Of a DNA stretch of 64,000 nucleotides, positions 1,831 through 45,460 are shown piece by piece. How positions within the stretch are numbered: the stretch's first letter is position 1; every line of letters begins with the position of its first letter. The stretch is from Parabacteroides hominis (lineage in GTDB: Bacteria > Bacteroidota > Bacteroidia > Bacteroidales > Tannerellaceae): assembly GCF_014287585.1 (NCBI RefSeq), contig NZ_JACOOJ010000003.1, positions 1 to 64,000 of the forward strand. Direction: 5' to 3'. The notes beneath the pieces are model-generated. The model made no database searches. It had not been told where the DNA came from and saw nothing but the letters and a program-made list of their open reading frames with translations. Position numbers and translations under genes: made by a program.

Positions 1831-1932
1831 CATGCTTATGGAACTAAAGTTTCATAGGCATGGAACAAAAGTTTCCCCTGCATGGAACAAAAGTTTCCCC
1901 TGCATGAAACTATCATTCCTTGCAGGGGAAAC
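1831..1932. repeat. Tandem 22-bp palindromic-unit array (GGRAAC family, copy 1)
   Basis: About four 22-bp units begin at 1837, 1859, 1881 and 1903. The units at 1859-1880 and 1881-1902 are identical: CATGGAAC, AAAA, GTTTCC, then CCTG. Each unit is a hairpin GGAAC-N4-GTTTC with a short linker. Outer units are degenerate, and an inverted piece (CAGGGGAAAC) ends the array just before the alaS stop. The same unit type recurs at 27444 and 45352. Confidence 0.85.
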
Positions 1933-1944
1933 GTCTCTTTCTTC

Positions 1945-4572
1945 TTATTTCAGGCCGGCTGCGTCCAAGATGTGTTCGACAGCTTCGCCCAGTCCGGCCA
2001 CGTTCTTGCCTCCGGCTGTTGCAAAATGAGGTTGGCCGCCTCCGCCACCTTGTATCAGTTTCGCTGCATCTTTCACCAGTTTGCCGGCATTCAAGCCTTC
2101 GGCTACCAGCGGTTCGCTCAGCATAACCATCAATGCGCACTTCTCGCCGTCTTTGATTCCTGCCACAAAGAAGACTTTTCCGTCCGTACTGCTTTCACCC
2201 TTGATCTGGAAAGCCAGGTCTTTGATGGCATCCACGTTGGCTTCGCCACGGAAGGCTATGACTTTGACGCCATTGCGCTCGACGGCTTTTGCGATCAACT
2301 CTTTCTTGAGCAGCTGTACTTTCTCTTTCACGTAGTCGCTTACCTGCTTTTTCAATTCGGCATTCTCTTCGATCGCCTTCTTGATGGTTTGGGACAGGTT
2401 CGGCACATTGTTGAACATCGCGCGCAGTTCGCGGAGGGAATCTTGCAACATGAAAGTGTAGTTTTCAGCACCTTCGGCCGTTACCGCTTCGATACGGCGT
2501 ACACCTGCCGCAATGGAACTTTCGCCGACCACACGCAGGGAACCGATCATACCGGTTGCGGGGATATGCGTACCACCGCACAACTCGATAGAGTTACCAT
2601 ATTTAACCACACGGACTTCATCGCCATACTTTTCACCGAACAGAGCCATAGCGCCCAATGCTTTCGCTTCGGCGATCGGCATATTGCGATGCTCTTCCAG
2701 CGGATAGTTGGCACGAATCTTTTCGCTCACCAGCTTTTCCACCTGACGGATTTCTTCGTCCGTCACTTTCTGGAAGTGGGAGAAGTCGAAGCGCAGGGAG
2801 TCGGGAGATACATAAGAACCCTTCTGTTCGACATGTGCCCCCAGAACTTCACGCAACGCCTCGTGCAACAGGTGAGTGGCAGAGTGGTTGCATTCGCACT
2901 GGATACGTTTCTTCTCATTGATCTTGGCGGTGAAAGTAGCCGTCACATCTTTCGGCAATTTAGTTACCAGATGTACAGGCAGGTTGTTTTCGCGCTTCGT
3001 ATCGATCACGTCGACCGTCTCGTCGTCGGCAATCAACCAACCGGTGTCGCCGACTTGTCCACCCATCTCTGCGTAGAACGGAGTCTGGTCCAGAACGATC
3101 TGATATAATACCTTGTTCTTCTGCTTGATCTGGCGGTAACGCAGGATTTCGGCATCACATTCGAACAAGTCGTAGCCCACGAAGTTACATCCGCCTTCTT
3201 TCAGTACCACCCAGTCGCCGGTTTCGATAGCGGCAGCGTTGCGGGCGCGGTCTTTCTGCTTCTGCATCTCGACGTTAAACTCGTCGATGTTGGCTTCCAT
3301 GCCGTTTTCACGCAGGATCAACTCGGTCAAATCCAACGGGAATCCGTATGTATCATATAGCGTAAAGGCATCTACGCCGCTGATCACGTTCTTCCCGGCA
3401 GCCTTTGTTTCTTCCATCTTCTTATCGAGCAAGCGGATACCGGTTTCCAGCGTGCGCAGGAAAGATTCTTCTTCTTCCTTGATCACCTTTTCGATCAACG
3501 TCTTCTGCGCGATCAGTTCGGGATAAGCGTCTCCCATCGTTTCGATCAGTACGGGCAACAGCTTATACATGAAGGATTCTTTGCGATCCAGGAACGTATA
3601 GCCGTAACGGACGGCACGACGCAGGATTCGACGGATGACATAACCGGCCTTTGCATTGGAAGGCAACTGCCCGTCCGTAATCGCGAAAGCGATCGTACGG
3701 ATATGGTCGGCAATCACACGCATAGCCACGTCCTGCTGTTTGTCCTTGCCGTAAGAAGTACCTGCCATATCGGCAATCACTTTGATGATCGGCTGGAAAA
3801 CGTCCGTATCGTAGTTGGATGTCTTGCCCTGCAAAGCCATGCAGAGACGTTCGAATCCCATACCGGTATCGATCACGCGGGCAGGCAGAGGTTCGAGCGA
3901 GCCGTCGGCCTTGCGGTTGTACTGCATGAACACTAAGTTCCAGATTTCGATCACCTGCGGATGATCCTTGTTCACCATGTCCTGGCCGGGGATAGCGGCA
4001 CGTTCTTCTTCCGGGCGGAGGTCGATATGGATTTCGGAGCAAGGGCCGCAAGGACCCGTATCACCCATTTCCCAGAAGTTATCGTGTTTGTTGCCATTGA
4101 TGATATGGTCTTTCGGCAGGAACTTTTCCCAGTAGCCGGCAGCCTCGTCGTCGCGTGAAAGGCCTTCGGCAGGACTTCCTTCGAACACGGTTGCGTACAA
4201 ACGGTCGGGGTTCAGTTTCAACACTTCAACCAGGTATTCCCATGCCCAGTTGATCGCTTCCTGTTTGAAATAGTCACCGAACGACCAGTTTCCCAACATT
4301 TCGAACATGGTGTGGTGGTACGTATCGTGTCCTACCTCTTCCAGGTCGTTATGCTTTCCACTCACACGAAGACACTTTTGTGAATCCGCGACACGTGGAT
4401 ATTTACGGGGTACGTTCCCCAGGATTATATCTTTGAACTGGTTCATACCTGCATTGGTAAACATCAATGTAGGGTCGCCCTTCACAACCATCGGAGCAGA
4501 AGGCACAATCTGGTGCTGCTTGGAAGCGAAGAAGTCTTTAAATGATTCACGGATTTCTTTTGCTGTCAACAT
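1945..4572 (-). CDS. alaS: Alanyl-tRNA synthetase
   Basis: Charges tRNA-Ala in the cytoplasm and removes mischarged Ser/Gly. It is full length at 875 aa. Class II motif 1 region [11 protein letters not shown] lies near residues 38-48, and [11 protein letters not shown] marks the aminoacylation core. The editing domain carries the zinc ligands HSATHLLHE and CGGTH. The C-Ala region ends with the glycine-rich [15 protein letters not shown]. The ATG at 4572 gives the conserved N-terminus ([14 protein letters not shown]). It is divergent from the M23 gene, with promoters packed into the 97-bp gap. Confidence 0.97.
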
Positions 4573-4612
4573 AATCTATTCTATATAGTCTCGTTAATAT
4601 TCTGAAAAACAA

Positions 4613-4643
4613 TTTGCAAAAGTACAGCAAATTATTATTTTTG
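4613..4643 (+). promoter_or_regulatory. Promoter of the M23 endopeptidase gene
   Basis: TTTG (4613-4616), a 19-bp spacer and TATTTTTG (4636-4643) match the Bacteroidota consensus, 26 bp before the ATG at 4670. On the other strand TACTTTTG (4624-4617) is a plausible -7 box for alaS, so the two promoters overlap face to face. Confidence 0.7.
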
Positions 4644-4669
4644 CACGTATCCAAGCAAGAAAATATTTG

Positions 4670-5653
4670 ATGAAACTATTTAAAAGCAGAAAAACATATT
4701 ACTTATATAACCCCAACACGCTCAGTTACGAGCGCGTTTACCCCTCCGCCAAAGACCGTTTTTTCGGTGTGCTCCGCCACCTGAGTATCGGTATCGTGAT
4801 TGGCGTAGGCATTTTCTTTATCTTTTCCCGCACGTTCGATTCGCCGGTCGAATCGCTTTTAAAGAAGGAGAACAAGTTGTTGCAGACGCAATACGAAGTG
4901 CTTTCGTTGCGCCTGACCAATGCGCTGGAAGTCTTGGATGACATACAACAACGCGACGAAAACCTCTACCGGGCGATCTTCCAGGCGGAATCGATCCCCG
5001 AATCCGTTCGCAAGTCCGGCTTCGGCGGGACCAACCGGTATGAACATCTGATGAGCCTGTCCAACCCCGAACTGGTCGTTTCGACCACCCGGAAGATGGA
5101 TATGTTGAGCAAACAGCTCTATATCCAATCCAACTCGCTGGAAGAACTTATCGCATTGGGCAAGAACCAGGAAGAACGAAGCAAGTGCATTCCCGCCATA
5201 CAGCCGATTGCCAATAAGGACCTGAAACGTACGGCATCCGGCTACGGTGTGCGTATCGACCCGATCTACCGCACTCCACGCTTCCACTCCGGCATGGACT
5301 TTTCCGCCAAAGTGGGTACGGAAATTTATGCAACCGGCGACGGAGTCGTTACCTTTGCCGCCTGGAAACAGGGGTATGGAAACTGTCTGATGATCAATCA
5401 CGGACACGGATTCCAGACGCTTTACGGCCACATGAGCAAGTTCCGGGCACGTGTCGGGCAGAAAGTAAAGCGCGGAGAAGTGATCGGGGAAGTGGGAAAT
5501 ACAGGTAAATCTACCGGCCCGCACCTTCACTACGAGGTGATTGTCCGTGGCAAACACGACAACCCGTCCAAATACTACTATATGGACCTGACTCCGGAAG
5601 AATACGACCGTATGATACAGATTGCCGAAAATCACGGCCAGGTTATGGATTAA
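4670..5653 (+). CDS. Membrane-anchored M23 family metallopeptidase (LytM-like)
   Basis: Predicted peptidoglycan endopeptidase. From the ATG at 4670 (a TTG one codon earlier is less likely) it is 327 aa: a cytoplasmic start, one membrane helix near 38-54 (SIGIVIGVGIFFIFS), a periplasmic coiled coil (about 60-100), then a LytM domain. The zinc ligands H206, D210 (FHSGMDF) and the HLH of GPHLHYE (285-287) are present, with YGHMS between them, so it should be active and not an EnvC-type activator. It lies 15 bp from the MerR gene and is probably co-transcribed. Involvement in cell-wall remodelling or division is family inference. Confidence 0.9.
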   Translation: MKLFKSRKTYYLYNPNTLSYERVYPSAKDRFFGVLRHLSIGIVIGVGIFFIFSRTFDSPVESLLKKENKLLQTQYEVLSLRLTNALEVLDDIQQRDENLYRAIFQAESIPESVRKSGFGGTNRYEHLMSLSNPELVVSTTRKMDMLSKQLYIQSNSLEELIALGKNQEERSKCIPAIQPIANKDLKRTASGYGVRIDPIYRTPRFHSGMDFSAKVGTEIYATGDGVVTFAAWKQGYGNCLMINHGHGFQTLYGHMSKFRARVGQKVKRGEVIGEVGNTGKSTGPHLHYEVIVRGKHDNPSKYYYMDLTPEEYDRMIQIAENHGQVMD

Positions 5654-5668
5654 ACATTGTTTAATACG

Positions 5669-6025
5669 ATGGCATTAAATAAAGATAAAAATCTAAAGCT
5701 CTATTTCTCCATCAGCGAGGTGGCGCAGATGTTCGATGTCAACGAGTCGACCCTGCGCTTCTGGGAGAAGGAATTCGACCAAATACGTCCACGCAAGACA
5801 GGCAAGGGGACCCGCTCGTACCGGCAGGAAGATATCGACGCCATACGCCTCGTCTACCACCTGGTGAAGGAAAGGGGAATGACACTGGCAGGAGCCCGGC
5901 AAAAGCTGAAAGAGAACCCGGAGACGACGATACGCCACGAAGAGATCGTTAACAGGTTGAAGCAGATCAAGGAAGAACTGCTCGGCATGAAGGAGGCATT
6001 CGAAGCGTTGGAAGCTCCCAAATAG
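5669..6025 (+). CDS. MerR-family transcriptional regulator
   Basis: 118 aa from the ATG at 5669; a TTG at 5657 would add four residues and overlap nothing useful. The N-terminal winged HTH is clear (KLYFSISEVAQMFDVNESTLRFWEKEF split over two segments), followed by the wing RKTGKGTRSYRQEDID and a short dimerisation helix. There is no cysteine-rich effector end, so it is probably not a metal sensor. This MerR type sits after M23 peptidase genes in Bacteroidales, and its targets are unknown. Confidence 0.85.
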   Translation: MALNKDKNLKLYFSISEVAQMFDVNESTLRFWEKEFDQIRPRKTGKGTRSYRQEDIDAIRLVYHLVKERGMTLAGARQKLKENPETTIRHEEIVNRLKQIKEELLGMKEAFEALEAPK

Positions 6026-6111
6026 TCGCTGCACGTAAAAACGATCTCGAAGAATTAGCTTGTTACGCCGGAAAATCGTACCTTCGCAGCAATTTAATAA
6101 AAGCAATAAAC

Positions 6112-6507
6112 ATGGAAATTACGGGAAGAATCATCGCCGTACTGCCAGTTCAAGGCGGTATCAGCAAAAACGGAAACGAGTGGAAAAAGCAGGAATATGT
6201 CCTGGAAACACATGACCAATACCCTAAGAAAGTATGCTTCCAGATTTTCGGTGCAGACCGCATCGACCAGGCAGCCATACAGCCCGGAGAAGAACTTACA
6301 GTATCTTTCGACATAGACAGCCGCGAATATCAGGGACGTTGGTTCACGAATATCAGTGCATGGAAAGTGGAACGCCCGATGGCCGCCGCTCCCCAGTCAG
6401 CACCGGGAGCCATGACTCCTGAGAACGTAGTACCCGCATCCGCACCTGCCGTATCCGCTGCTCCTGATTTTGGTCCGGCCAACCCGATCGACGACCTGCC
6501 TTTCTAA
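6112..6507 (+). CDS. DUF3127 family OB-fold-like protein with SSB-like tail
   Basis: 131 aa. Residues 1-85 match the DUF3127 pattern (MEITGRIIAVLP, WKKQEYVLET, FDIDSREYQGRWFTNISAW), thought to adopt an OB-like fold. A flexible Ala/Pro-rich linker leads to the end NPIDDLPF. That tail resembles the acidic C-terminus of bacterial SSB (DDDIPF), which recruits replication and repair proteins. Single-stranded DNA binding is inference. A weak -7 box (TACCTTCG) lies at 6079-6086. It converges on relA/spoT across a palindrome array. Confidence 0.8.
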   Translation: MEITGRIIAVLPVQGGISKNGNEWKKQEYVLETHDQYPKKVCFQIFGADRIDQAAIQPGEELTVSFDIDSREYQGRWFTNISAWKVERPMAAAPQSAPGAMTPENVVPASAPAVSAAPDFGPANPIDDLPF

Positions 6508-6512
6508 TGGAC

Positions 6513-6597
6513 AAAAAGGTCATAGCCTTTTCCGCAAAAGCCTATGACCTTTTCGGACGAAAGCTATACCTTTTTTGCAAAAGGCTATAGCTTTTTC
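6513..6597. repeat. Tandem palindromic-unit array (AAAGGCTATAGCCTTT type)
   Basis: Four units starting at about 6513, 6536, 6560 and 6579 (23, 24, 19 and 19 bp). Each is a near palindrome of the form AAAAGG-CTATAG-CCTTTT, and the second is close to the inverse of the first. It fills the whole gap between the convergent DUF3127 and relA/spoT genes, so it may also serve as a two-way terminator. Confidence 0.8.
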
Positions 6598-6600
6598 TAT

Positions 6601-8901
6601 TTAGTCCGCCACACGGGCTACAGACTGGATATTCTTTATCTTAGAAAGGACTACACACATCCGCTGGATATCCTCCACATCGTGGACTTTCATCTTCACC
6701 CTTCCTTCGAACACGCCGTCTTTCGCCTCGATCAGCAGACGGATGATATTGACATTGAAGTCATCGGAAATCGTGCGGGTGATCGTGTTCAAGACGCCAA
6801 TCGAGTCAATGCCCTTAATCTCAAGCGTCGCCTCGAATGATGAATGATGGCTGCTCCATTCCGTATTCAGGATGCGTTCGCCAAAGCTGCTTTTCAAGCG
6901 CATGGCGATCGGGCAGGAACGTTTGTGGACTACGACGTTGCCGTCGTCATTGATAAAGCCCAACGATTCGTCACCCGGAATCGGTTTACAGCAATCGGCA
7001 ATGACGTAATTGCGTTCGAAAGCCTCCTCCTTCAGGATATAAGGTTTCTTCTTGTCATATTTCGGCTTTTCCTTCGGTTGTTCCTTTTCCTCTTCCTCTT
7101 TCTTTCCGGTAGTCGCTTTTGTCGCTACCCGGAGTGCCTGTTTGACGTATTTGAACAAGACATTGTCCGTTTTCTCCTTCAACAGTTTGTGGATGTTTTC
7201 CGGCAGGATCACATCCCCTTTTTCTACTGCATAGTAAAATTCTTCACGCTTGGAGAAACCGAAATACATACACAGCTTGTCGATATTAGATGTGTTTACT
7301 TCTAAATTGTTGCGTTTGAAAGCATCGATTACCTTAATCTCGCCTTCTTTGGCGGCCTCTTTGCGGATCTTTTTCAGGTAAGCGTCGATTCTCGCACGCG
7401 CCCTTGCTGTCGTGACGAAATTCAGCCACTCCGGTTGCGGGTTCTGCGAACGGGAGGTCAGGATCTCCACCTGGTCTCCACTTGCCAACTGATGGCTGAG
7501 CGGAACCAAACGATGGTTGACTTTGGCGCCGATACATTTGTTTCCGATATCCGAGTGCAGGGCATATCCGAAGTCCAGAGCCGTAGCTCCCTGCGGCAAA
7601 GTTTTGATGTCGCCTTTCGGGGTAAAGACAAATATCTCGGAGGTAAAAAGATTCAGCTTGATGGTATCGAGGAAGTCCAAAGCGTTCGGGTCCGGGCTTT
7701 CCAGTATCTCGGTAATGGTCTGCAACCATTTGTCGAGTTCAGTATCTTCTTCTATGTTATGTTCCTTATACTTCCAGTGAGCGGCAAAGCCTTTCTCGGC
7801 AATCTCGTCCATCCGGCGGCTACGGATCTGTATCTCCACCCATTGTCCGTCAGGCCCCATCACGGTCAGGTGCAACGCCTGGTAACCGTTGGCTTTCGGG
7901 CGGCTCACCCAGTCGCGGATACGGTCCGGGCGAATACGGTAGACATCCGTGATGGCGGAATAGATATCCCAGCACTGGTTCTTCTCATCCACACCCGGCA
8001 GCGGGTCGAAGATGATACGGACAGCATATATATCGTAGATGTCTTCAAAGCTGACACCTTTGCTCTCCATCTTGTTCCAGATCGAGAAGGCGGATTTCAC
8101 ACGGGCGCGCATTTCATAGTTCAGCCCCATATCTTTCAGCTTCTTGTCCACCGGCACGGCAAAATGTTCGAACAAGGTGTTACGGGCTGCTTCCGTAGAC
8201 TTCAGCTTCAGATTGATAAAGGCATATTCCTGCGGATGCTCATACTTGAAGCTCAGGTCTTCCAGTTCCGTTTTGATGGAGAAAAGCCCCAGGCGGTGTG
8301 CTAAAGGAGCATAGAGGTAAAGCGTCTCACCGGCTATCTTGAACTGCTTCGCGGGCAACATAGACCCCAAAGTACGCATGTTGTGGAGACGGTCGGCTAT
8401 CTTGATCAGGATCACCCGGATATCGTCGCTCATCGTCAGCAACAGCTTACGGAAATTCTCCGCCTGCGCCGACGCCTGTTCACCGAAGATGCCGCCGGAA
8501 ATCTTCGTCAAGCCGTCCACGATCTGGGCGATCTTCTCGCCGAACATGTCCTTAATATCCTCGACCGTGTATTCGGTATCCTCCACCACGTCGTGCAACA
8601 AGGCCGAACAGATGGAAGTGGAACCCAGTCCCATCTCGCGGCAAACAATACGCGCCACGGCTATCGGGTGCATGATGTAAGGCTCGCCCGAACGACGCTT
8701 CACGCCGGCATGTGCCTGATTGGCAAAGTTGAACGCCTTGGTTATGCGTTCTACCTTGCGGCGATGGTTTGACTTAAGGTAATCCTGCAACAGGGCGTTA
8801 AAGCCGTCCTGAATCATCTGCTCGTCGGCCGAGAGGACAGGTTTCGCCTCCTGGCCAGGCTGGATGCCTGCTGTGTCTTTTGTTTCATTTATGTCGCTCA
8901 T
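6601..8901 (-). CDS. Bifunctional (p)ppGpp synthetase/hydrolase (RelA/SpoT, Rsh)
   Basis: 766-aa long RSH enzyme controlling the stringent response. The N-terminal HD hydrolase has HDVVEDT and intact surroundings (ADRLHNMRT). The synthetase domain follows (about 255-370, with PKANGYQALHLTV and WVEIQIRS). A TGS domain (FVFTPKGDIKTLPQGATALDF) comes next, and a C-terminal ACT domain covers about 690-766. Both activities should be present. It is the last gene of a minus-strand block starting at parA, but the 87-bp gap upstream holds its own -7 box. Confidence 0.95.
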   Translation of the reverse strand: MSDINETKDTAGIQPGQEAKPVLSADEQMIQDGFNALLQDYLKSNHRRKVERITKAFNFANQAHAGVKRRSGEPYIMHPIAVARIVCREMGLGSTSICSALLHDVVEDTEYTVEDIKDMFGEKIAQIVDGLTKISGGIFGEQASAQAENFRKLLLTMSDDIRVILIKIADRLHNMRTLGSMLPAKQFKIAGETLYLYAPLAHRLGLFSIKTELEDLSFKYEHPQEYAFINLKLKSTEAARNTLFEHFAVPVDKKLKDMGLNYEMRARVKSAFSIWNKMESKGVSFEDIYDIYAVRIIFDPLPGVDEKNQCWDIYSAITDVYRIRPDRIRDWVSRPKANGYQALHLTVMGPDGQWVEIQIRSRRMDEIAEKGFAAHWKYKEHNIEEDTELDKWLQTITEILESPDPNALDFLDTIKLNLFTSEIFVFTPKGDIKTLPQGATALDFGYALHSDIGNKCIGAKVNHRLVPLSHQLASGDQVEILTSRSQNPQPEWLNFVTTARARARIDAYLKKIRKEAAKEGEIKVIDAFKRNNLEVNTSNIDKLCMYFGFSKREEFYYAVEKGDVILPENIHKLLKEKTDNVLFKYVKQALRVATKATTGKKEEEEKEQPKEKPKYDKKKPYILKEEAFERNYVIADCCKPIPGDESLGFINDDGNVVVHKRSCPIAMRLKSSFGERILNTEWSSHHSSFEATLEIKGIDSIGVLNTITRTISDDFNVNIIRLLIEAKDGVFEGRVKMKVHDVEDIQRMCVVLSKIKNIQSVARVAD

Positions 8902-8938
8902 ATCGAATGCCCTTCCGTATTTTAAACGTGTATGTAGG

Positions 8939-8946
8939 CAAATATA
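8939..8946 (-). promoter_or_regulatory. Candidate -7 box for relA/spoT
   Basis: TATATTTG on the minus strand, 38 bp before the relA/spoT ATG, matches TAnnTTTG. No good TTTG lies at the right distance, so the promoter would be weak or activator-dependent. Confidence 0.45.
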
Positions 8947-8988
8947 TATAAATATTTGATTATATATTCCCGAAAGCGACAGAAAAAG

Positions 8989-26494: not shown

Positions 26495-27049
26495 ATGGAA
26501 TTACCAGAGGAGCAAAATAAGTTAAAGGAGATCGCCGCTGGAAACATAGACGCTTTCGAGTGCCTGTTTTTCTATTACCAGCCCCGGTTGGTAAATTTCC
26601 TTATCGGGCTGACGCACGATAAGGAAGTCAGCCGTGATATGGCCCAGGATTTGTTTCTCTCGTTGTGGAAAGACCGCGAAAAACTGAAGAATGTCCGTTC
26701 TTTTTCCTCCTACCTTTTCCAGATGGCGCGTTTTACCGTGTACGACTACTTCGACCGTCTCATCGTATCGGAAAAATATACGAGCGAATACCTGCAGGAA
26801 GCCTCCCCTGCCGAATCAGAAGAAGAAGCCTTGTTTGTCCGCGAATTGCAATCGATCATCAACCGTACGGTCGATCGAATGTCTCCCCAGCGAAGCAAAA
26901 TTTACCGGATGAGCCGCGAGGAAGGTTTGTCTAATGACGAAATCGCCATGCGCCTCGATATCAGTAAGCGGACGGTGGAAAACCACCTGACCGCCGCCCT
27001 TGCCATTCTTCGCAAAGTCCTTTATCTTTTCTTTGTTATGAATTTGTAG
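26495..27049 (+). CDS. ECF sigma factor, probably for PUL 2
   Basis: 184 aa. Region 2 is AFECLFFYYQPRLVNFLIGLTHDKEVSRDMAQDLFLSLWKDR (in parts), and region 4 is RMSREEGLSNDEIAMRLDISKRTVENHLTAALAILRK (in parts). The C-terminus is hydrophobic (VLYLFFVMNL). It belongs to the Bacteroidetes FecI-like group. No anti-sigma gene is adjacent; the next FecR gene starts 1.9 kb downstream after a repeat-filled stretch and has no other sigma gene before it, so the two are probably partners. Confidence 0.88.
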   Translation: MELPEEQNKLKEIAAGNIDAFECLFFYYQPRLVNFLIGLTHDKEVSRDMAQDLFLSLWKDREKLKNVRSFSSYLFQMARFTVYDYFDRLIVSEKYTSEYLQEASPAESEEEALFVRELQSIINRTVDRMSPQRSKIYRMSREEGLSNDEIAMRLDISKRTVENHLTAALAILRKVLYLFFVMNL

Positions 27050-27094
27050 TCGGAGTGGTTGTTTGAAGGTTGTCAACGGCTCTTTAAAGGATTG

Positions 27095-27379
27095 CTGATA
27101 CCGCCTGCTTCTTTGCGATCCCGCATCAAGTGAGGCAAGCCTCGTGCCGCAGATTCTCTTTTGCCGTCTGCTTCAGCAGACGGATAGGTGATTGTTCCGG
27201 CTTTGCCGGTTCCTCTGTGGGTTTTTAACCCCTTTAAATATAATCCACAAAAGGGCCTAAAGCCCACAGAGGAAGAGGATTTGCCTCCAGACCTTTTAAT
27301 CCGTCTGCTGAAGCAGACGGCAAAAGAGAGGATGAGGGGGGAGGGATGGCCGATACCCTATAGGGCAGGCGGTATCGGC
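27095..27379. mobile_element. MITE-like long palindromic element, copy 1
   Basis: The outer arms GCTGATACCGCCTGC (27095-27109) and GCAGGCGGTATCGGC (27365-27379) match at 14 of 15 bases. The inner arms 27156-27185 and 27299-27328 are a perfect 30-bp inverted repeat, and each is itself a hairpin, CCGTCTGCTTCAGCAGACGG. Between them lie CCGGCTTTGCCGG and CCTCTGTGGG...CCCACAGAGG. No coding capacity. Closely related to the element at 46321. Confidence 0.75.
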
Positions 27380-27443
27380 TATCCTAAGAGAAAGCGGAGC
27401 TTTCTAATCATTGCCCTTTTACTTTCATGAAGTTCCCTTACTT

Positions 27444-27540
27444 GGAAACGCAAGTTTCCTCGTTAGGAAACTTGCGTTTCCAGCATAGGGAACTCTCGTT
27501 TCCTGCCGGGGGAATTTCCGTTTCCTCCAGGGGAAAACTG
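27444..27540. repeat. Tandem 22-bp palindromic-unit array (GGRAAC family, copy 2)
   Basis: Exactly periodic 22-bp units start at 27444, 27466, 27488 and 27510, with a partial fifth at 27532. Each has GGAAAC/GGGAAC, four to five bases and GTTTCC/TTTCC, then a 6-bp linker (TCGTTA, AGCATA, TGCCGG, TCCAGG). The first two are inverses of each other in the core (GCAA versus TTGC). Linkers vary while stems are kept. Confidence 0.88.
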
Positions 27541-27679
27541 TAATAGGCTGGTTATTAGTGTTTATCAATACACTGTTTTGGGATTCGTTTTTTACTTCAT
27601 TCAAAGCATATCAGGTACTTGTATTTTATCCCTGAACTAAGGGAATATGTTGCCCAAAGGGTATTGTTTTGTCCTGTAA

Positions 27680-27770
27680 CCCACAGAGGAACCGGCAAAG
27701 CCGGAACACAATCATCTATCCGTCTGCTGAAGCAGACGGCAAAAGAGAGGCTGCGACACAAGGATTGCCG
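27680..27770. mobile_element. Half copy of the MITE-like element
   Basis: CCCACAGAGGAACCGGCAAAG, in two parts, is followed by the hairpin CCGTCTGCTGAAGCAGACGG and CAAAAGAGAGGCTGCG. It matches the right half of the element at 46321 over about 85 bp. The left half is missing, so it is a decayed or solo arm. Confidence 0.7.
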
Positions 27771-28033
27771 ATGCTGACCGTTTGTCTGCGGCCCCGTGTC
27801 AGGCACGGGGACAAGCCTGTTCCCGCATTTGATGCGGGATCGCAAAGGAGCAGGCGGTATCGGCCATCCCCAAAGAGCCGTCAGGCTCTATCTCCGGCCT
27901 AAGCTGGTGAGCGTAAAGCGCAGAGACCGCAGTGAGCGTCCGGAGCGTCTGCTGTCCCAAGCGAAGCGAGTTTCAGACGCGACAGCAAACGAAGGGAACG
28001 GAGTAGCGAAGCAGGTTCGGCCTTGAACTTTTG

Positions 28034-37200: not shown

Positions 37201-37264
37201 TTTTTTTCAGGTCCGGAATAGGACCTTTTTTTATTTGTAGTGTCATATAATAAAAGCAAGATTC

Positions 37265-38248
37265 ATGGAAGAACAAAAACAGATAAAAGACTATATCGTC
37301 GACTATTTACTGGACGGTGAAGATGAGAAGCATCTTGATCCGATATTGGTTGAGTGGTTAGCCGAAAGTGAGTCCCATAGAAAAGAATTTGATTTGTATA
37401 AAAAGATTTGGAAAGAATCCCATCGTTATACAGAATCTGAGGCTTTTGATCCTGATCTTGCATGGGAAAAGGTTAACAAGATAAACCGACAGAAGATATA
37501 TGCTCATAAGTATTGGAAAAATATATTGTATATAGTTTCTGGGGCGGCTGCATCTTTGTTGATAATGCTTGCTTTGTCTTTCATGGGTGCTTTTGAGAAA
37601 AGCTCGGACATGCAGGTTAGAATGAGTGCCGATTATGGAAGCCGTTCGGAAATCGTTTTGCCGGATGGGTCTTTAGTAAAACTGAATTCAGGCTCTGAAG
37701 TAGTTTATGCTTATGATTCGAAAAAGAAAATACGGGAAGTTAATTTCCTGGGGGAAGGTTTCTTTGATGTCTCTAAAAGCAAAGAACCTTTTGTAATAAA
37801 AACTGCCGGTGGGTTAAATGTGAAAGTTTGGGGAACTTCCTTCAATCTGCAGGCGTATGCTGATGATCCGATTGTTCAAGCATCTTTGGTCGAGGGATGT
37901 ATCGAACTGGAAAGCGGAGAAGAGAAGCTGATTATGAAACCCGGAGAAATGGCTGTTTTTGATAAAGAGACGAATAAGATTAAACAGATGAAGGGCGTAT
38001 TGTCGCACTCTTATGGCTGGTTGGACAATAAATTATATATGGAAGATATGCCTTTGTCTCTTGTTTGCAAGTATTTGGAAAGATGGTATGATGTCAAGAT
38101 TATGATCCAACCCGGATTAGGTGAAAATATTCGTTATAATGGAGTCATACGGGAAGAAACCGTAACAGATGTAATGGATGCGTTATCCCGCTTGAGTAAT
38201 ATTAGCTATCATGTGAAAGGAAAACATATAAGTATAACCTCTAAATAG
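37265..38248 (+). CDS. FecR-family anti-sigma factor, PUL 3
   Basis: 327 aa. Cytoplasmic start (IVDYLLDGEDEKHLDPILVEWL), a membrane helix at about 82-100 (ILYIVSGAAASLLIMLALSF), periplasmic FecR domain (DYGSRSEIVLPDGSLVKLNSGS in parts) and a C-terminal SusC-contact domain (PLSLVCKYLERWYDVKI). It transmits occupancy of the PUL 3 SusC to the sigma factor. Confidence 0.93.
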   Translation: MEEQKQIKDYIVDYLLDGEDEKHLDPILVEWLAESESHRKEFDLYKKIWKESHRYTESEAFDPDLAWEKVNKINRQKIYAHKYWKNILYIVSGAAASLLIMLALSFMGAFEKSSDMQVRMSADYGSRSEIVLPDGSLVKLNSGSEVVYAYDSKKKIREVNFLGEGFFDVSKSKEPFVIKTAGGLNVKVWGTSFNLQAYADDPIVQASLVEGCIELESGEEKLIMKPGEMAVFDKETNKIKQMKGVLSHSYGWLDNKLYMEDMPLSLVCKYLERWYDVKIMIQPGLGENIRYNGVIREETVTDVMDALSRLSNISYHVKGKHISITSK

Positions 38249-38285
38249 AATTGCCTATGAAGTAGAATGCCATGAATACACAAAA

Positions 38286-38311
38286 ACGGGAAATGCTGTC
38301 ACATCTCCCGT
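38286..38311 (+). promoter_or_regulatory. Stem-loop between fecR and susC, PUL 3
   Basis: ACGGGA (38286-38291) and TCCCGT (38306-38311) around a 14-nt loop, in the 130-bp leader of susC. PUL 2 has a hairpin in the same position. Confidence 0.4.
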
Positions 38312-38378
38312 TATGAGTTTGATCATAAGATTAGTGTTGGAAGCACTAATAGTTAGCTAATAATCAATTTACAAATAT

Positions 38379-41300
38379 ATGAATTATTTTGATAAGCCAC
38401 GGCAGGAAAGCTTTTCTGTCTGTAAAAAAATATTGTCTATTATGAAAATAGTAACGTTGGCCATAATAGTTTGTTCAATCAACATTTCTGCTACTGTTTA
38501 TTCACAAACAACAAAGTTATCATTGAATGTGCAGAATCAGTCAATCAAAGAAGTCCTTTTTTTGATTGAAACCCAATCTGACTTTCGTTTTATCTATGAG
38601 AGTGGAAAGATTAATTTAGAAAAAAAAGTTTCTGTTCATGTCAAAGATCAAACTGTTGAGTCTGTTTTGGAACGTATTTTTAAAACAGAAGGGGTCGAAT
38701 ATGAGATTACAGAAAATAATTTCATCTTGATTAATCCTACGGAGAATATTGGAACTATTATTACTGCACAAAACAAAAAATATGTAGTAGGTACAGTAAA
38801 AGATGAAAGTGGAGAGCCTATTGTTGGCGTGAATGTGATGGAAAAGGGAACAATGAATGGTACAGTAACGGACATTAATGGTAGATTTTCTTTAGAGGTT
38901 ACTTCAAATTCGTCATTGCAATTTTCTTATATCGGCTATCTTACAAAAGAAATGGAAGTGGGAAATCAAACTAATATTTTCGTGAGTTTAGTTGAAGATT
39001 CTCAGAATTTGGATGAGATTGTAGTAGTAGGTTATGGAACTCAACGGAAAAAAGATTTGACTGGTGCTGTATCTCATGTGGATATGAAGGGAATGCAAGA
39101 ATTACCTAATACCAATATTTCTCAAGCTTTGCGAGGTACGATTGCCGGAGTAAATGTAAATACGGACGGAAAGCCTGGCTCGAATAGTAATATTGTAATT
39201 CGTGGTTTGACTTCATTGTCTGCAGGGAATAGTCCTCTTATTATTGTTGATGGTATTCCTCTTGCCGGTTCTTTAAGCGATATAAATAGTACGGATATTG
39301 AGACTATTGACATTTTGAAAGATGGAAGTGCTGCAGCTGTATATGGAGCCAAATCTTCGAATGGGGTTATTTTGATTACAACAAAACGTGGAAAGTCTGA
39401 AAAACCATTGATTCAATATAATGGTTATCTGGGGTTTCAAAAATTCAGCCGTAAATTGAAAATGCTGGATGGTCCTGCTTATGTGAAAAAGATTATTGAT
39501 TATGAGAGATCAAATGGAGTGGAGAACCCCGATCCTTCTAATTATATGCAAGACCATGAATATCAAAACTATTTGGAAGGAAAGACCGTTGATCCAATAG
39601 ACTTTGTTTCTCAGTCTGCTCCTATACATTCGCATGATATTTCGGTCTCAGGAAAAAATAATCGAACTACATATTATCTTTCTGGTTCGTTTACAAGTCA
39701 AAAGGGGTTAATTTACAATGATGATTTTCAGCGTGTGTCATTACGTGCTAATATTGAAAATAAAATTACAGATTGGTTTAGTGTCGGGGTGAATGCCGCA
39801 TTTAGTGGACGTGATGATTCCGGGTTGGCTGGAAATATTGAGAATGCAGTCACTTTATCACCCTATTCACAAATGTATGATAAAAAAGGTGAGTTAATAC
39901 TGAAAGTTCATGGGGGAGGCGAAAGTATGGCACAAAACCCAATTTTCTGGTCTGAAAAAACAGATGATTTGGAAAAAACACAAAATATTACAGGCAATTT
40001 GTACACACAAATAGATGTCCCTTTTGTCAAGGGTTTGAGTTATAGATTGAATTATTCTAATACATATAATTGGTATAAACATTTTGTGTATTCTCCCTCT
40101 TATATGAAAGAAGATGAAAAAGTTGTAGCTAAAGGCACAAAGGAGTATAGTGAAAATTACAATTGGCTTGTAGAAAATATCGTTAAATACCAGAAACATT
40201 TTCTGGATATTCATGATATTGACATAACATTCCTTTTTAGCCGTGATCATTATAATAATGATTATTCTAAAATGGATAATTCTGACTTTTTTTCAGATAT
40301 CTTGGGGTATAATAAATTAGAGTTGGGGAAAAATCCGACTGTAGCTTCTTCTGCAAAAGAGTCAAACGGATTATCTTATATGGGACGTATCAACTATAGA
40401 CTGATGGATCGGTATTTGTTGACTTTATTGGCACGCCGGGATGGTTACTCAGCATTTGGAAAAGAAAAGAAATGGGGGACGTTTCCTTCTATCGCTGTGG
40501 CATGGATTCTTTCGGAGGAAGTTTTTATGAAAAGAATAAGTTGGTTGAATAATTTAAAAATACGATTCTCTTATAGTGAAACAGGAAACCAAGCAATTGC
40601 TCCTTATTCTTCTTTGGCTCAAATGGCACAGAATCAATATGTATTTGGTGAAGGTTCTTCTTCTTTCAATGGTATTTATAATTCAGCGATGGGTAATAAT
40701 GATCTGACATGGGAAACCACAAAATCAGCCAATGTCGGTATCGATTTTAGTGTATTGGGTAGCCGTTTAAGTGGATCACTGGAATATTACGATTTGAAAA
40801 CAAAAGACTTGCTGATGAGACGTTCTATTCCTTCTATGACGGGTTATAACTCGGTATATACCAATTTAGGAGGAATTTCGAATAAGGGTTTGGAATTGAC
40901 ACTGAATTCAGTGAATATATCAAATCGGGATTTTGAATGGAGTTCAACCTTGACATTATCGACAAATAAAAACAAAATAACAAGTTTGTATGGATTGGAT
41001 CTGGATAATGATGGAAAAGAAGATAATGATATTAGTAATGGTTGGTTCATTGGACAACCGATAGGTGCTATTTACGACTATACTCTAAATGGAGTCTATC
41101 AGGAAGATGATGATATACCTACAGGTTTTAAACCCGGTTATTTTCGCATTGTCGATAAAAATGGAAGTGGAGGGGCTGACCCTGATGATCGTAGTATTAT
41201 TGGCAAGACATCGCCGGATATTAGGATTGGATTAGGTAATACCTTAACATATAAAGGATTTACTTTATATTTGTTTGTTAATTCCTCATTCGGGGGAAAG

Positions 41301-41690
41301 AAAAGTAATCCGATGTTGAATCCTGCGGGATGGTTTCCCGATAGATTGAATATTTTAGATGTAGGAGAAGAGTATTGGACTCCGGAAAACAGAAGTAATA
41401 CCCGTCCAACAATTGGTTACGCAATGCCATTTACACATGGTTTCTACGAAAGTCTTACTTATGTTAGAATACAAGATGTTTCATTATCTTATGATATACC
41501 TCGAAAATTATTGGATATGTTGAAAATAAATGGTTTGCGTTTGTATATAAGTGCTAAGAATCTTGCTACTTTCACTAATTGGTCCGGTTGGGATCCTGAA
41601 ATTGATGCGAATGGAACAGCTACAGAGATAAAGAAGGGAGGATATCCTTTAGCAAAAACTTTCACATTTGGAGTAAACTTTAGTTTCTAA
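38379..41690 (+). CDS. SusC-type TonB-dependent transporter with STN domain, PUL 3
   Basis: 1103 aa. A long N-terminus precedes the signal helix (MKIVTLAIIVCSINISATVYS at about residues 22-42), so an ATG at 38442 could be the true start. STN domain (about 45-105), CarboxypepD_reg-like domain (VGTVKDESGEPIVGVNVMEKGT in parts), plug (VVVGYGTQRKKDLTGAV) and barrel ending FTFGVNFSF. It imports an unknown glycan and signals through the adjacent FecR. The locus is uniformly AT-rich. Confidence 0.94.
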   Translation: MNYFDKPRQESFSVCKKILSIMKIVTLAIIVCSINISATVYSQTTKLSLNVQNQSIKEVLFLIETQSDFRFIYESGKINLEKKVSVHVKDQTVESVLERIFKTEGVEYEITENNFILINPTENIGTIITAQNKKYVVGTVKDESGEPIVGVNVMEKGTMNGTVTDINGRFSLEVTSNSSLQFSYIGYLTKEMEVGNQTNIFVSLVEDSQNLDEIVVVGYGTQRKKDLTGAVSHVDMKGMQELPNTNISQALRGTIAGVNVNTDGKPGSNSNIVIRGLTSLSAGNSPLIIVDGIPLAGSLSDINSTDIETIDILKDGSAAAVYGAKSSNGVILITTKRGKSEKPLIQYNGYLGFQKFSRKLKMLDGPAYVKKIIDYERSNGVENPDPSNYMQDHEYQNYLEGKTVDPIDFVSQSAPIHSHDISVSGKNNRTTYYLSGSFTSQKGLIYNDDFQRVSLRANIENKITDWFSVGVNAAFSGRDDSGLAGNIENAVTLSPYSQMYDKKGELILKVHGGGESMAQNPIFWSEKTDDLEKTQNITGNLYTQIDVPFVKGLSYRLNYSNTYNWYKHFVYSPSYMKEDEKVVAKGTKEYSENYNWLVENIVKYQKHFLDIHDIDITFLFSRDHYNNDYSKMDNSDFFSDILGYNKLELGKNPTVASSAKESNGLSYMGRINYRLMDRYLLTLLARRDGYSAFGKEKKWGTFPSIAVAWILSEEVFMKRISWLNNLKIRFSYSETGNQAIAPYSSLAQMAQNQYVFGEGSSSFNGIYNSAMGNNDLTWETTKSANVGIDFSVLGSRLSGSLEYYDLKTKDLLMRRSIPSMTGYNSVYTNLGGISNKGLELTLNSVNISNRDFEWSSTLTLSTNKNKITSLYGLDLDNDGKEDNDISNGWFIGQPIGAIYDYTLNGVYQEDDDIPTGFKPGYFRIVDKNGSGGADPDDRSIIGKTSPDIRIGLGNTLTYKGFTLYLFVNSSFGGKKSNPMLNPAGWFPDRLNILDVGEEYWTPENRSNTRPTIGYAMPFTHGFYESLTYVRIQDVSLSYDIPRKLLDMLKINGLRLYISAKNLATFTNWSGWDPEIDANGTATEIKKGGYPLAKTFTFGVNFSF

Positions 41691-41709
41691 CTTAATTAAA
41701 TCTGATGTT

Positions 41710-43329
41710 ATGAAAATAATATATAAATCATTCTTTTTTTATATTTCAGCACTTTTATTAGTATCATGTAGTGATGTTTTGGATGAAAAACCATTATCGT
41801 TTCTTAGTCCTGAGAATGCATACGAAAATAAAGATGCTTTTGAAAATGGTCTTATTGCATTACATAAATTTGCCCGTGATGAGGTTGATAACTCTTTGAA
41901 AAATGGTTTGAATATGAACTGGGAAATGGTATTAGGAACAGATCAGGCACATATTGGAGAAAAATATAATGCAGGGCCTGAACGTTTTTGGGACTATTCT
42001 GTCATAACCAGTTTTTATTCGGGATCTCAGTCATATTGGGATTGGGGCTATAAAAAAATGATTTCTAATGCGAATACGATTATTAATCGTGTTGACAACC
42101 CTAACATACAATGGACAGAGGTTGAAAGAAATGCCGTGAAAGCGGAAGCCTTGTTTTTCCGTGCTTATGCTTATAATGTTTTGGTTAATTTGTTTGGTGG
42201 TGTTCCGATTGTGATAGAAGAAGTGGCTGCGCCGAAATTGGATTTTGTCAGAGCTTCCAGATTGGAGGTTCTGCAACAGGAGCAAAGTGATTTGGAATTT
42301 GCAATAGAGTGGCTTCCTACAGACGAAAAAGTGGATGGTAGAATTACCAAAGGTGCTGCTAATCACTTATTGTCAGAAGTATATATTAGTATTGGTTTGG
42401 AGTCAAATGATGAATCCTTTTATCAAAAAGCGATTGAAGCAGCCTCCAGAGTAATAGACTCCCCTAAATATCGATTGATGACGGAACGTTTTGGTCAGAA
42501 GAAGGATCAACCGGGTAATGTTTTATCTGACTTGTTCTGGGATTATAATATAAATAGAAGTGCCGGTAATGAAGAAACCATTTGGGCTTTACAGTTTGAA
42601 TATAATACTCCCGGTGGAAAAGAATCTAATCCAACAAACTGGATGCGTGCCTGGGGATGTCGTTATTGGGATTTAAAAGACCCGGATGGAAAATCTGGAA
42701 TGCAGATTTGTGATTCAATTGGAAGGCCGGTTGGCTGGATACGTCCTACAAATTATGTATTTTATGATGTTTGGGGAGAAGATTGGAATGATATGCGTAA
42801 TTCCAGTTATAACATTCGTCGTGATTGGTATTGGAATAATCCTGAATCTACTTATTTTGGGCAAAAGGTCGAGATTACAGCAGATATGGATACGGTGTGG
42901 ATTATAGCACCTATGTTACGGAAGTTAGAGGGAGACTTTGCTTCAACAGGGAATAATCCATTCAAAGATGATCCTGTAATGCGTTTAGCAGAAACTTATC
43001 TTTTGAGAGCAGAAGCTTATATGTGGAAAGGCGATTTGGTAAATGCAGCTAAAGATATCAATGTCGTTAGAGGTAGGGCTCATGCTAAGCCAATAGAACC
43101 TTCTCTGGTGAATATTGATTATATTCTGGATGAACGGACTCGTGAGTTAGTGGTGGAAGAACCTCGCAGAAGGACATTAGTGAGAGTAGGGAAGATGTAT
43201 GAAAGGACTATTAAGTACAATCCATTAAGTGGACAGACTATCAAGCCTTTTAACGAGTTGTGGCCGATTCCACAAAGTGCTATAGATGCTAATTTGGAAG
43301 CTGAATTAGTACAGAATCCTGGTTATTAG
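41710..43329 (+). CDS. SusD-like surface lipoprotein, PUL 3
   Basis: 539 aa. The lipobox LVSC gives lipidated C20 followed by SDVLDEKP. The helical RagB core is visible (KAEALFFRAYAYNVLVNLFGGVPIV) with the C-terminal VNIDYILDERTRELVVEEPRRRTLVR and ending VQNPGY. No enzyme gene follows; the next gene is aroA after a terminator. The PUL 4 SusD shares the FRG/FRA-LVNLFGGVP pattern and NPGY end. Confidence 0.94.
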   Translation: MKIIYKSFFFYISALLLVSCSDVLDEKPLSFLSPENAYENKDAFENGLIALHKFARDEVDNSLKNGLNMNWEMVLGTDQAHIGEKYNAGPERFWDYSVITSFYSGSQSYWDWGYKKMISNANTIINRVDNPNIQWTEVERNAVKAEALFFRAYAYNVLVNLFGGVPIVIEEVAAPKLDFVRASRLEVLQQEQSDLEFAIEWLPTDEKVDGRITKGAANHLLSEVYISIGLESNDESFYQKAIEAASRVIDSPKYRLMTERFGQKKDQPGNVLSDLFWDYNINRSAGNEETIWALQFEYNTPGGKESNPTNWMRAWGCRYWDLKDPDGKSGMQICDSIGRPVGWIRPTNYVFYDVWGEDWNDMRNSSYNIRRDWYWNNPESTYFGQKVEITADMDTVWIIAPMLRKLEGDFASTGNNPFKDDPVMRLAETYLLRAEAYMWKGDLVNAAKDINVVRGRAHAKPIEPSLVNIDYILDERTRELVVEEPRRRTLVRVGKMYERTIKYNPLSGQTIKPFNELWPIPQSAIDANLEAELVQNPGY

Positions 43330-43354
43330 AATATATAAACTAAATGATTATTTA

Positions 43355-43414
43355 TTGAGAATGAATATAGGAAAACTGATTATTGTTAGTTTTATGAAAT
43401 TTCCTGATTCTCAA
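43355..43414 (+). terminator. Extended stem-loop after PUL 3
   Basis: TTGAGAAT (43355-43362) pairs with ATTCTCAA (43407-43414), and inner AGGAAA...TTTCCT and AAACT...AGTTT extend the stem. It lies 25 bp after the susD stop and probably ends the PUL 3 transcript. Confidence 0.6.
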
Positions 43415-43592
43415 AATGATATTTTAATGGTAAGTGATATATTTAAATATGCTGATTTGATCACAGAAAACTCAAGTTGTGAACATTTTGTCATTCATTA
43501 TGTATAGTGAAAATATGCATTGTTTTGATTTATAAGAAATGGATAGATAATTTCTTTGGCTTTTCTTAGTCATATCTTCCCAATAAAATCCG

Positions 43593-43600
43593 TACTTTTG
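43593..43600 (+). promoter_or_regulatory. -7 box for aroA
   Basis: TACTTTTG, 22 bp before the aroA ATG, matches TAnnTTTG. No TTTG occurs at the expected spacing. Confidence 0.5.
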
Positions 43601-43622
43601 TACTCCATTTTAAAGCAGAGAT

Positions 43623-44846
43623 ATGAACTACGTTGTAAAGAGCCCTGTTTCACTAAAAGCTTCCATCAAGCTTCCCGCATCCAAGAGTATCTGTAATCGT
43701 GCGTTGATACTTAATGCGTTGAGCTATAGTCCGTATGAGATTCGGAATTTGTCGGATTGTGATGATACGGAGGTGATGGTGAAGGCGTTGAATTCGAATG
43801 ATCGTGACTTTGATATAAAAGCCGCGGGGACTGCGATGCGGTTCCTGACGGCTTTTTTGTCTAAAGTGGTGGGTGAGTGGACGATTACCGGGACCCAGCG
43901 GATGAAGAACCGGCCGATCAAGATACTGGTGGATGCGCTGAATGCGCTGGGGGCACGGGTGGAATATATGGAGAAGGAAGGCTATCCTCCTCTCCGCATT
44001 TTCGGAAGTGCGCTACAGGGAGGCGAGATTTCGCTTGCCGGCGGGGTCAGTTCGCAGTATATTTCGGCGTTGCTGATGATCGCGCCCCTGATGGAGAAAG
44101 GGCTGACCTTGCATCTTGAAGGTGCTGTCATTTCAAAACCCTATATTAACCTGACATTGCAGTTGATGGAGCAATATGGGGTAAAGGCGGAATGGAACGG
44201 GCAGACCATTAAGGTAAGACCGCAGGATTATCATCCGATACCTTTTACCGTCGAATCTGACTGGAGCGCCGCTTCCTACTGGTATTCCATGATGGCATTG
44301 TCTAAAAATGCCGAGATCGAGTTGCTGGGACTGTTTAAGAACAGTTTGCAGGGAGATGCCGCCGGAGCCAAATTGTTTGCACAGCTTGGCGTGGGCACGA
44401 CTTACACAGACCGGGGCGTTATCTTGAAGCACAACGGGAACAGGACAAAAAAACTGAATTATAACTTCGTAAACGAGCCGGACCTGGCTCAAACCTTTGT
44501 CGTTACCTGCGTGTTATTAAATATCCCTTTCCGCTTTACCGGTTTGCAAAGTCTGAAGATAAAGGAAACAGACCGTATCGAAGCGCTTAAGACGGAGCTT
44601 CGCAAATTAGGGTATCTCCTGACAGACAGCAACGACAGTATCTTGGAATGGAACGGCGAGCGGTGTGAGCCGGAAACGCATCCGGTTATTGCGACCTATG
44701 AAGATCACCGTATGGCAATGGCATTTGCACCTGCCGCTCTGATCCTGCCGGAAGGGATTGAGATTGCCGATCCGGAAGTGGTAAGCAAGAGCTATCCGCA
44801 TTATTGGGAAGATCTGCGTTCTACGGGTTTTCAAATCGAGGAATAG
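43623..44846 (+). CDS. aroA: 5-enolpyruvylshikimate-3-phosphate synthase
   Basis: 407 aa, slightly shorter than the usual 430, as in other Bacteroidales. It joins PEP to shikimate-3-phosphate in the shikimate pathway. Substrate-binding motifs are LPASKSICNRALIL (start), AAGTAMRFLTAF, TGTQRMKNRPI, SSQYISALLM, ESDWSAASYWY, KIKETDRIEALK and YEDHRMAMAFAP. The catalytic Lys, Arg, Asp and Glu are in place. The gene follows its own -7 box and probably leads a short operon with the 140-aa gene. Confidence 0.96.
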   Translation: MNYVVKSPVSLKASIKLPASKSICNRALILNALSYSPYEIRNLSDCDDTEVMVKALNSNDRDFDIKAAGTAMRFLTAFLSKVVGEWTITGTQRMKNRPIKILVDALNALGARVEYMEKEGYPPLRIFGSALQGGEISLAGGVSSQYISALLMIAPLMEKGLTLHLEGAVISKPYINLTLQLMEQYGVKAEWNGQTIKVRPQDYHPIPFTVESDWSAASYWYSMMALSKNAEIELLGLFKNSLQGDAAGAKLFAQLGVGTTYTDRGVILKHNGNRTKKLNYNFVNEPDLAQTFVVTCVLLNIPFRFTGLQSLKIKETDRIEALKTELRKLGYLLTDSNDSILEWNGERCEPETHPVIATYEDHRMAMAFAPAALILPEGIEIADPEVVSKSYPHYWEDLRSTGFQIEE

Positions 44847-44921
44847 ACGCACGGGGGATATCAGCGTTGACGCAGGTGTTGCGCGTCAAATCGGAGTAAG
44901 AATTTAAAAGAGTATTAAGAT

Positions 44922-45344
44922 ATGTGGTATATTATAATCGGAATCATTGTACTGGGTATCCTTGCTGCCATTGCCGGTTATTTCCGGAACCGGAAACTAC
45001 AGAAGATGCTGGAGCGCGGGGAGATCGCCGAAATCCCCGAAGCGCAGGAACTTGTTACGGACGAATGTTGCGGGCAGCATGAAACCTGCGAACGCGACAG
45101 TTTGTTGGCTGCGGTCAGCAAGCAGATCGAGTATTACGATGATGAAGAACTGGACCGCTTCCAGGGAGTCGAAGCCGATGCATATGATGAAGATGCCGTG
45201 AACGAGTTTCGTGATGTGCTTTATACGTTGCAAGAGATTGAGGTGGCCGGTTGGTTGCGCAGCCTGCAACTGCGTGCGATTAATCTGCCGGATGCGCTGA
45301 AGGATGAAGCTTTTTTAATCGTCGGCGAACGTCGTATACATTAG
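44922..45344 (+). CDS. Conserved small membrane-anchored protein
   Basis: 140 aa. One N-terminal helix (MWYIIIGIIVLGILAAIAGYF) is followed by a soluble acidic domain with DECCGQHETCERDS (three Cys) and a helical end (EFRDVLYTLQEIEVAGWLRSLQLR). It is regularly located after aroA in Bacteroidales and is sometimes annotated as a phospholipase without visible catalytic motifs. Function unknown. It lies 75 bp after aroA. Confidence 0.8.
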   Translation: MWYIIIGIIVLGILAAIAGYFRNRKLQKMLERGEIAEIPEAQELVTDECCGQHETCERDSLLAAVSKQIEYYDDEELDRFQGVEADAYDEDAVNEFRDVLYTLQEIEVAGWLRSLQLRAINLPDALKDEAFLIVGERRIH

Positions 45345-45351
45345 GCACTTA

Positions 45352-45460
45352 GAGTTTCCTTGCCGTGGGAACGGAAGTTTCCCGCTATGGGAACGGAAGT
45401 TCCCTGCTGTGGAAACGAGAGTTCCCTGCCTATGAAACGAGAGTTTCCCGCCGGGAAACC
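45352..45460. repeat. Tandem 22-bp palindromic-unit array (GGRAAC family, copy 3)
   Basis: Units start at 45367, 45389, 45411 and 45433 with partial units on both sides. Each is GGGAAC/GGAAAC, GGA or GAG, AGTTTCC/AGTTCCC, then a linker (CGCTAT, TGCTGT, TGCCTA). The first two differ at only three or four positions. It lies between two co-oriented genes, so it is probably transcribed and would fold into a row of hairpins. Confidence 0.88.

Follow-up and report, generated by a model that had tools for sequence, protein, structure and literature searches.

Rows of a 22-bp unit in the window

Three intergenic regions of the window (the whole stretch of 64,000 nucleotides analysed here) carry rows of inverted GRAAC half-sites, arranged as a unit GRAAC-N4-GTTYC-N8 with a period of 22 bp (Table 1). 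Each unit contains two dyads, A (spanning N4) and B (spanning N8), which alternate every 11 bp. The information of the half-site sits in GRAAC (about 1.1-2.0 bits per base), and weaker purines precede it. A sequence-only reading of the window had described these three arrays and ascribed to them a common design. Both claims stand: with at most 2 mismatches allowed, the core pattern has 45 matches in the window where 10.3 are expected, and 0 of 100 shuffles reach that total; no array arises when the window is simulated 20 times by a first-order Markov model; and the 22-bp register is kept throughout all three arrays. None of them has a family match in an Rfam scan of the window, whose only match is a tRNA.

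Table 1. Arrays, neighbouring genes and other repeats of the window
Feature	Position	Strand	Description
3-dehydroquinate-synthase-like gene	687-1751	-	array 1 lies on its 5' side
Array 1	1827-1941 (with partial end unit, to 1945)	none	five units
alaS	1945-4572	-	its stop flanks array 1
Look-alike array	6513-6598		AAAAGG...CCTTTT palindromic units of about 22 bp, between convergent DUF3127 and RelA/SpoT-like genes
Sigma-70-like gene	26495-27049	+	followed by the long repeat-rich intergenic region that holds array 2
Other repeat family	27089-27869 and 46334-46548		inverted copies of about 50-117 bp, flanking array 2
Array 2	27432-27537	none	about five units (and a partial end unit)
Array 2 tail	27533-27557	+	conserved, one-sided: GAAAACTGTAATAGGCTGGTTATTA
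Gene without Pfam match	44922-45344		flanks array 3
Array 3	45355-45447 (with partial end unit, to 45458)	none	about five units, in a codirectional gap
ABC-3 permease-like gene	45488-46291		flanks array 3

The other repeat family carries the palindrome CCGTCTGCTGAAGCAGACGG and AACCCACAGAGGAACCGGCAAAGCCGGAACA; its exact palindrome occurs in no other fetched locus. A de novo scan also brought out a period-23 array with an AATAAC/GTTATT-like core at 6488-6573 of L001, a locus of a Parabacteroides sp. whose AlaRS is 87% identical to that of the window.

Distribution and genomic setting

A search of related genomes for the 22-bp unit, advised by the sequence-only reading, reveals a family. A two-unit pattern (at most 3 mismatches) matches in 27 of 38 congeneric genomes, and its backwards control in 0 of 38. 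In G018 and G021, close relatives of the window (88-91% at two places), a looser pattern finds 100 and 52 forward matches, respectively, and none in the control. The distribution beyond Parabacteroides is sporadic. At most 1 mismatch being allowed, 9 of 393 genomes of a Bacteroidales sample match (G230, 93 matches; G007, 68; G102, 48; G383, 14; G246, 12; G318, 6; G009, 4; G001 and G357, 1 each); single matches are at chance level, since the backwards control also gives one match in each of four genomes. With zero mismatches, 4 of 395 genomes of a phylum sample match and none in the control. Judged by AlaRS identity, G102 lies near loci named Bacteroides or Mediterranea (85-88%), G246 is about 76-77% identical to Parabacteroides loci, and G230, G383 and G318 reach at most 65% with any named locus compared. 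The GAAAC/GTTTC design recurs at most of 20 places outside the genus, some of which are degenerate or have an additional centre. By eye, the GAAAC units of L303, L304, L308 and L309 (G383 and G318) enclose a special centre of the form GTGCC-N10-GGCAC or similar. The open-licence literature searched contains no description of the 22-bp array family among the matches listed.

Arrays sit in the 3' flanks of genes and avoid divergent gaps. This was assessed in stretches of G018 (35 with arrays, 7 random), G021 (18), G015 (7) and G010 (13), which, apart from the random ones and L241, were selected for their matches to arrays; genes were called by a simple longest-ORF script. The array finder returned no array on the G010 stretches L233 and L241. 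Among the 74 arrays with a called gene on both sides, three of which are those of the window, 43 have codirectional neighbours, 18 convergent and 13 divergent ones, whereas 32 of 64 array-free gaps (120-1000 bp, same stretches) are divergent (Fisher p 6e-5). For the 43 codirectional arrays, the median distance is 20 bp to the upstream stop and 95 bp to the next start. Removal of known orthologues leaves 57 arrays, 10 of them divergent (p 2e-4), and codirectional medians of 30 bp (stop) and 110 bp (next start); 25 of the 32 codirectional arrays are then nearer the upstream stop (p 3e-4). A check of the 13 divergent places for hidden RNA genes found one adjoining tRNA (L229) and otherwise none. 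A link to a chromosome macrodomain was rejected, as the 35 array positions of G018, among the matches listed, do not depart from a uniform distribution (KS p 0.40).

Constraint and turnover of the arrays

The constraint on the arrays looks like that of a protein on double-stranded DNA, to judge from spacing, half-site conservation and a rigid dyad. Between exact neighbouring half-sites in arrays, 179 of 190 A gaps measure 4 and 196 of 229 B gaps measure 8; the other B gaps include 7 and 9 (15 cases), 15-19 (13) and 29-30 (5). A whole-genome pair scan over gaps of 2-30, independent of the array finder, gives 142 forward pairs in 6 of 7 genomes and none in the control. Among the 75 of these pairs that were listed (50 from G230, 16 from G007 and 9 from G018; rows counted by eye), 60 have a gap of 8, 7 a gap of 30, 6 a gap of 17 and 2 a gap of 7; the main values, 8, 30 and 17, represent 2, 4 and about 3 helical turns. 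The gaps, both in arrays and in the pair scan, bear out the earlier view that this is neither a CRISPR nor a plain satellite: unique spacers of about 30 bp are absent, gaps are regular (4 and 8, more rarely 7, 9, 17-19 and 30), and this gap structure also speaks against a simple satellite. Among the listed pairs, GAAAC-N4-GTTTC dyads exactly 17 bp apart (a 31-bp period, about three turns) occur at five places in G007 and at one in G018.

In 17 orthologous array pairs, half-sites have changed at 64 of 625 positions, a rate somewhat underestimated because both orthologues were picked for having arrays, against 164 of 649 in loops and linkers, a count to which unit turnover may add (Fisher p 2e-12); the flanks of these pairs have changed at 284 of 1957. 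The proposal that the conserved parts are under constraint is thereby upheld. The A centre is poor in pyrimidine-purine steps, which occur there in 18 of 371 dyads against 56 expected (p 5e-10, step p values being indicative only because units in one array are not independent) and in 8 of 192 without known orthologues. Such steps number 118 and 125 at the flanking loop positions (144 and 154 expected), 113 at the B centre (136 expected), and 89 and 100 beside it (68 and 82 expected). Identical copies were dropped from this dyad-step test as from the stem, loop-pair, polarity, loop-swap and tag/end tests. Such a shortage is expected of an operator with a stiff, uncontacted centre, as in the case of phage repressors, and conserved half-sites in a fixed helical register, as found here, are the mark of an operator array. 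Phased protein binding, one of the possibilities raised by the sequence-only reading, is the best fit to the fixed spacing and the rigid dyad, and we infer that a protein binds the arrays.

It therefore seems somewhat more probable than any other explanation, at slightly better than even chances, that the unit is an operator for a dimeric, sequence-specific DNA-binding protein and that the arrays work on double-stranded DNA. Several points weigh against it. The 3' flanks are unusual for ordinary operators, the conserved cores could be sites for a mobilising enzyme, and the orthologous pairs, having been chosen for arrays in both species, favour conserved cores. Moreover, no single array looks essential: among the arrays fetched, different species groups have them at different places, and several species lack array 3. 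The mildly low pyrimidine-purine counts at other loop positions also count against it, as do the coupling across the B dyad, the G.T excess of tail-bearing arrays and the folding of arrays 1 and 2 that are described below.

The arrays vary in size between relatives. By eye, the alaS place holds 5 units in the window, 4 in G021 and in G018, 3 in G007 and 2 in G020. Inspection by eye of the array-3 place finds an array in G021, G018, G026, G007 and G001, a short one in G020, GTTTC/GAAAC units in G019 too, and none in G015, G043, G027 and G010, where 2-17 bp separate stop from start. In G033 (L132) this place is taken by a long array whose palindromic core is another one, of the CTCTGCGGAG type, so other cores can occupy this spot. 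Units duplicate in tandem, since identical neighbouring loops are in excess: 36 of 212 adjacent loop pairs are identical (8.5 expected). Only 8 pairs are exact reverse complements, close to the 8.7 expected, and hairpin-copying of neighbours was rejected for want of an excess. The inverse cores noticed earlier in neighbouring units do occur in array 2, where the loops are GCAA and TTGC, but they are not a rule of the family.

The tail of array 2, GAAAACTGTAATAGGCTGGTTATTA, is common to arrays in G010, G015, G019, G027 and G043. In G015, G019, G027 and G043, 17 distinct copies of ~125 bp end in TACGA[AG]GAAACTGTAAT; about 12 of them carry five units in register, and by eye their loops seem to bear unit-specific signatures. 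These copies imply that complete elements dispersed at some time. The tail pattern has 19 exact matches in 6 of 19 genomes (backwards control, 2), and all 19 adjoin an array. The active copying suggested at the outset is thus supported in part, as tandem duplication and as dispersal of ~125-bp elements in one species group.

These data bear on a second explanation, namely that the arrays are a non-autonomous mobile or minisatellite-type element (MITE/ERIC/BOX-like) whose half-sites bind the enzyme that moves or amplifies them, with no gain to the host. We consider this unlikely, though still the closest competitor: the operator array ranks first, a mobile element read by its own enzyme next. 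The 17 tail copies look as if descended from one element, and the invariable adjacency of tail and array and the excess of identical tandem neighbours point the same way. Few places are common to different species groups among the 119 arrays compared (part of each genome). Of 47 genomes, 13 have the Y1 transposase (PF01797), and 11 genomes with it bear arrays (G007, G015, G020, G022, G023, G039, G043, G230, G246, G318 and G383), among them 4 of the 5 outside the genus. However, neither a second conserved end nor target duplications are seen by eye. The Y1 search, which covered that family only, found no transposase tied to arrays and none in eight array-rich genomes (G010, G018, G019, G021, G027, G029, G031 and G038), drafts that may be incomplete; mobilisation by a RAYT was rejected, as Y1 is not needed in many array-rich genomes. 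Arrays are also mostly retained between G021 and G018, where 15 of the 18 fetched G021 arrays have a partner and the remaining 3 may simply fall outside the G018 stretches compared. The related idea of the sequence-only reading, that the arrays are remnants of one transposon end, is touched in part by the one-sided tail of some arrays, array 2 included; no second end was seen, nor, in the Y1 search, a tied transposase.

The RNA-hairpin question

A third explanation, that the arrays are REP/BIME-like hairpins working in RNA as terminators or 3'-end stabilisers, appears improbable. Selected hairpins in RNA or single-stranded DNA are expected to show stem covariation and an excess of G.U over A.C on whichever strand acts. 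In codirectional arrays, the transcript strand has G.U and A.C in balance, both in A dyads (53 vs 50) and in B dyads (92 vs 94). At the variable R/Y position pairing is no better than shuffled (z -2.5 for A, 2.0 for B), and inside three species groups R/Y coupling is absent (z -1.9 to 0.1). The covariance check proposed by the sequence-only reading is thus negative for the half-site stems, pooled or within species groups. The base beside the core does couple across the B dyad (pooled z 7.4; 3.3 in the largest group; at most 1.4 within arrays), and a few other isolated position pairs reach z 2.4-2.8. When the 28 tail-bearing arrays are set with the tail to the right, G.T is in weak excess at A stems (42 vs 24, p 0.036), with 81 vs 67 at B stems. 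Linkers and loops have no clear strand polarity.

The window arrays fold well compared with dinucleotide shuffles (z -9.2, -7.8 and -3.8 for arrays 1 to 3), but on average there is no folding gain beyond the half-sites: swapping loops and linkers in 75 strict-register arrays, those out of strict register being dropped, does not alter the folding energy (mean z 0.03, p 0.84). Eight of the 75 nonetheless fold clearly better than their swapped copies, window arrays 1 and 2 included (z -1.8 and -3.2; array 3, +1.2). The 3'-end location favours a role in RNA, as does the alaS array, which in the window, G018 and G021 has a hairpin at its end with TTTTCTTTT after it; in G018, array 1 has changed on two arms (by eye), the single exception to the absence of compensatory changes. 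On the other hand, an A-run follows the 43 codirectional arrays more often than a T-run (30 against 18), 9 of 32 codirectional arrays (orthologues removed) are less than 50 bp from the next start, and some arrays stand, by eye, behind a separate terminator-like hairpin. The look-alike array behaves otherwise. In its G021 orthologue both arms of the long hairpin have changed together (by eye), and therefore comparing relatives can reveal compensatory changes where present. AAAAGG-type arrays are probably two-way terminators, of which such joint changes are expected; more copies lie at C1:2239554 and C1:2433990 of G018 and at C1:238719 of G021. It appears that the RNA-hairpin reading, and with it the row of hairpins or terminators envisaged earlier, fails in general, even though arrays 1 and 2 beat their swapped copies.

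Finally, a site for gyrase or another topoisomerase, at which arrays would absorb supercoils at gene ends, is highly improbable: the convergent and 3' location would suit it, but the strict half-site sequence and the 22-bp register suit a sequence-specific dimer better, and the analogy comes from general background and from some E. coli REPs reported as gyrase/topoisomerase sites in the available text of PMC3733652.

Known systems and a possible role

The available text of PMC3733652 describes REP/BIME elements as GTAG- or CGTC-tagged palindromic repeats, short, clustered and extragenic, mostly between codirectional and convergent genes. The arrays are likewise extragenic palindromes near gene 3' ends. 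They differ in having a rigid 22-bp register and no tag (over 880 stem sides GTAG occurs 18 times, about 17 expected, and CGTC once). They also lack a G.U or G.T signature on the transcript strand, the weak A-stem excess being that of the tail-bearing arrays, and in many array-rich genomes the search found no accompanying RAYT (Y1) transposase. The BrickBuilt MITE of Porphyromonas gingivalis, as presented in the available text of PMC4596501, consists of a 23-nt unit in up to 22.8 repeats with a leader, a tail and 12-nt inverted ends related to IS5; that text also mentions 22-nt tandem repeats of P. gingivalis without giving their sequence. Both families are intergenic tandem units of similar length in Bacteroidales, with dispersed copies and, in idea, a leader or tail. 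The arrays differ from BrickBuilt by their 22-bp unit and by a tail that is one-sided and not in every array, and GAGACC-type terminal inverted repeats are not enriched (14 of 128 arrays against 5 of 35 control windows).

ERIC and BOX are dispersed or modular intergenic repeats of about 100-130 bp, of unknown job, and are not known to be built from a fixed 22-bp operator-like unit such as that of the arrays. The plasmid parC site bound by ParR is an iterated operator or centromere array whose phased half-sites are bound cooperatively; it offers a comparison of working only, the arrays being many chromosomal copies behind genes. The parS sites of the ParB/Noc type have GTTTC...GAAAC half-sites. 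The half-sites of the arrays resemble these, but the spacing differs, and a ParB/Noc-like identity is not claimed.

In the operator reading, each 22-bp unit would be a GRAAC-N4-GTTYC operator bound by one protein dimer, and the repeat of two helical turns would line up adjacent dimers along the same face of the helix. Bound rows in the 3' flank of a gene would most likely form a boundary- or roadblock-like nucleoprotein patch, which might serve nucleoid organisation or insulate neighbours from each other's supercoils or transcription. We infer this boundary, roadblock or nucleoid-order job; which protein binds, and with what effect, is speculative. A wider proposal, which we hold to be rather doubtful, is a hitherto undescribed chromosome-wide boundary system of Bacteroidales, in which one dimeric protein coats the arrays and insulates transcription or supercoil domains, the arrays being renewed by tandem duplication and 125-bp dispersal.

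On balance, the comparisons of sequence lean toward a previously undescribed class of 3'-flank operator arrays, read by one dimeric DNA-binding protein. A palindromic repeat is not necessarily an RNA hairpin: two arrays of similar look in the window behave differently in comparisons across relatives. With the half-site, the register and mutant controls now defined, the arrays are ready bait. If the operator reading is true, dozens of phased operator-like arrays located off promoters in common gut commensals would indicate a global DNA-binding protein that has so far escaped study.
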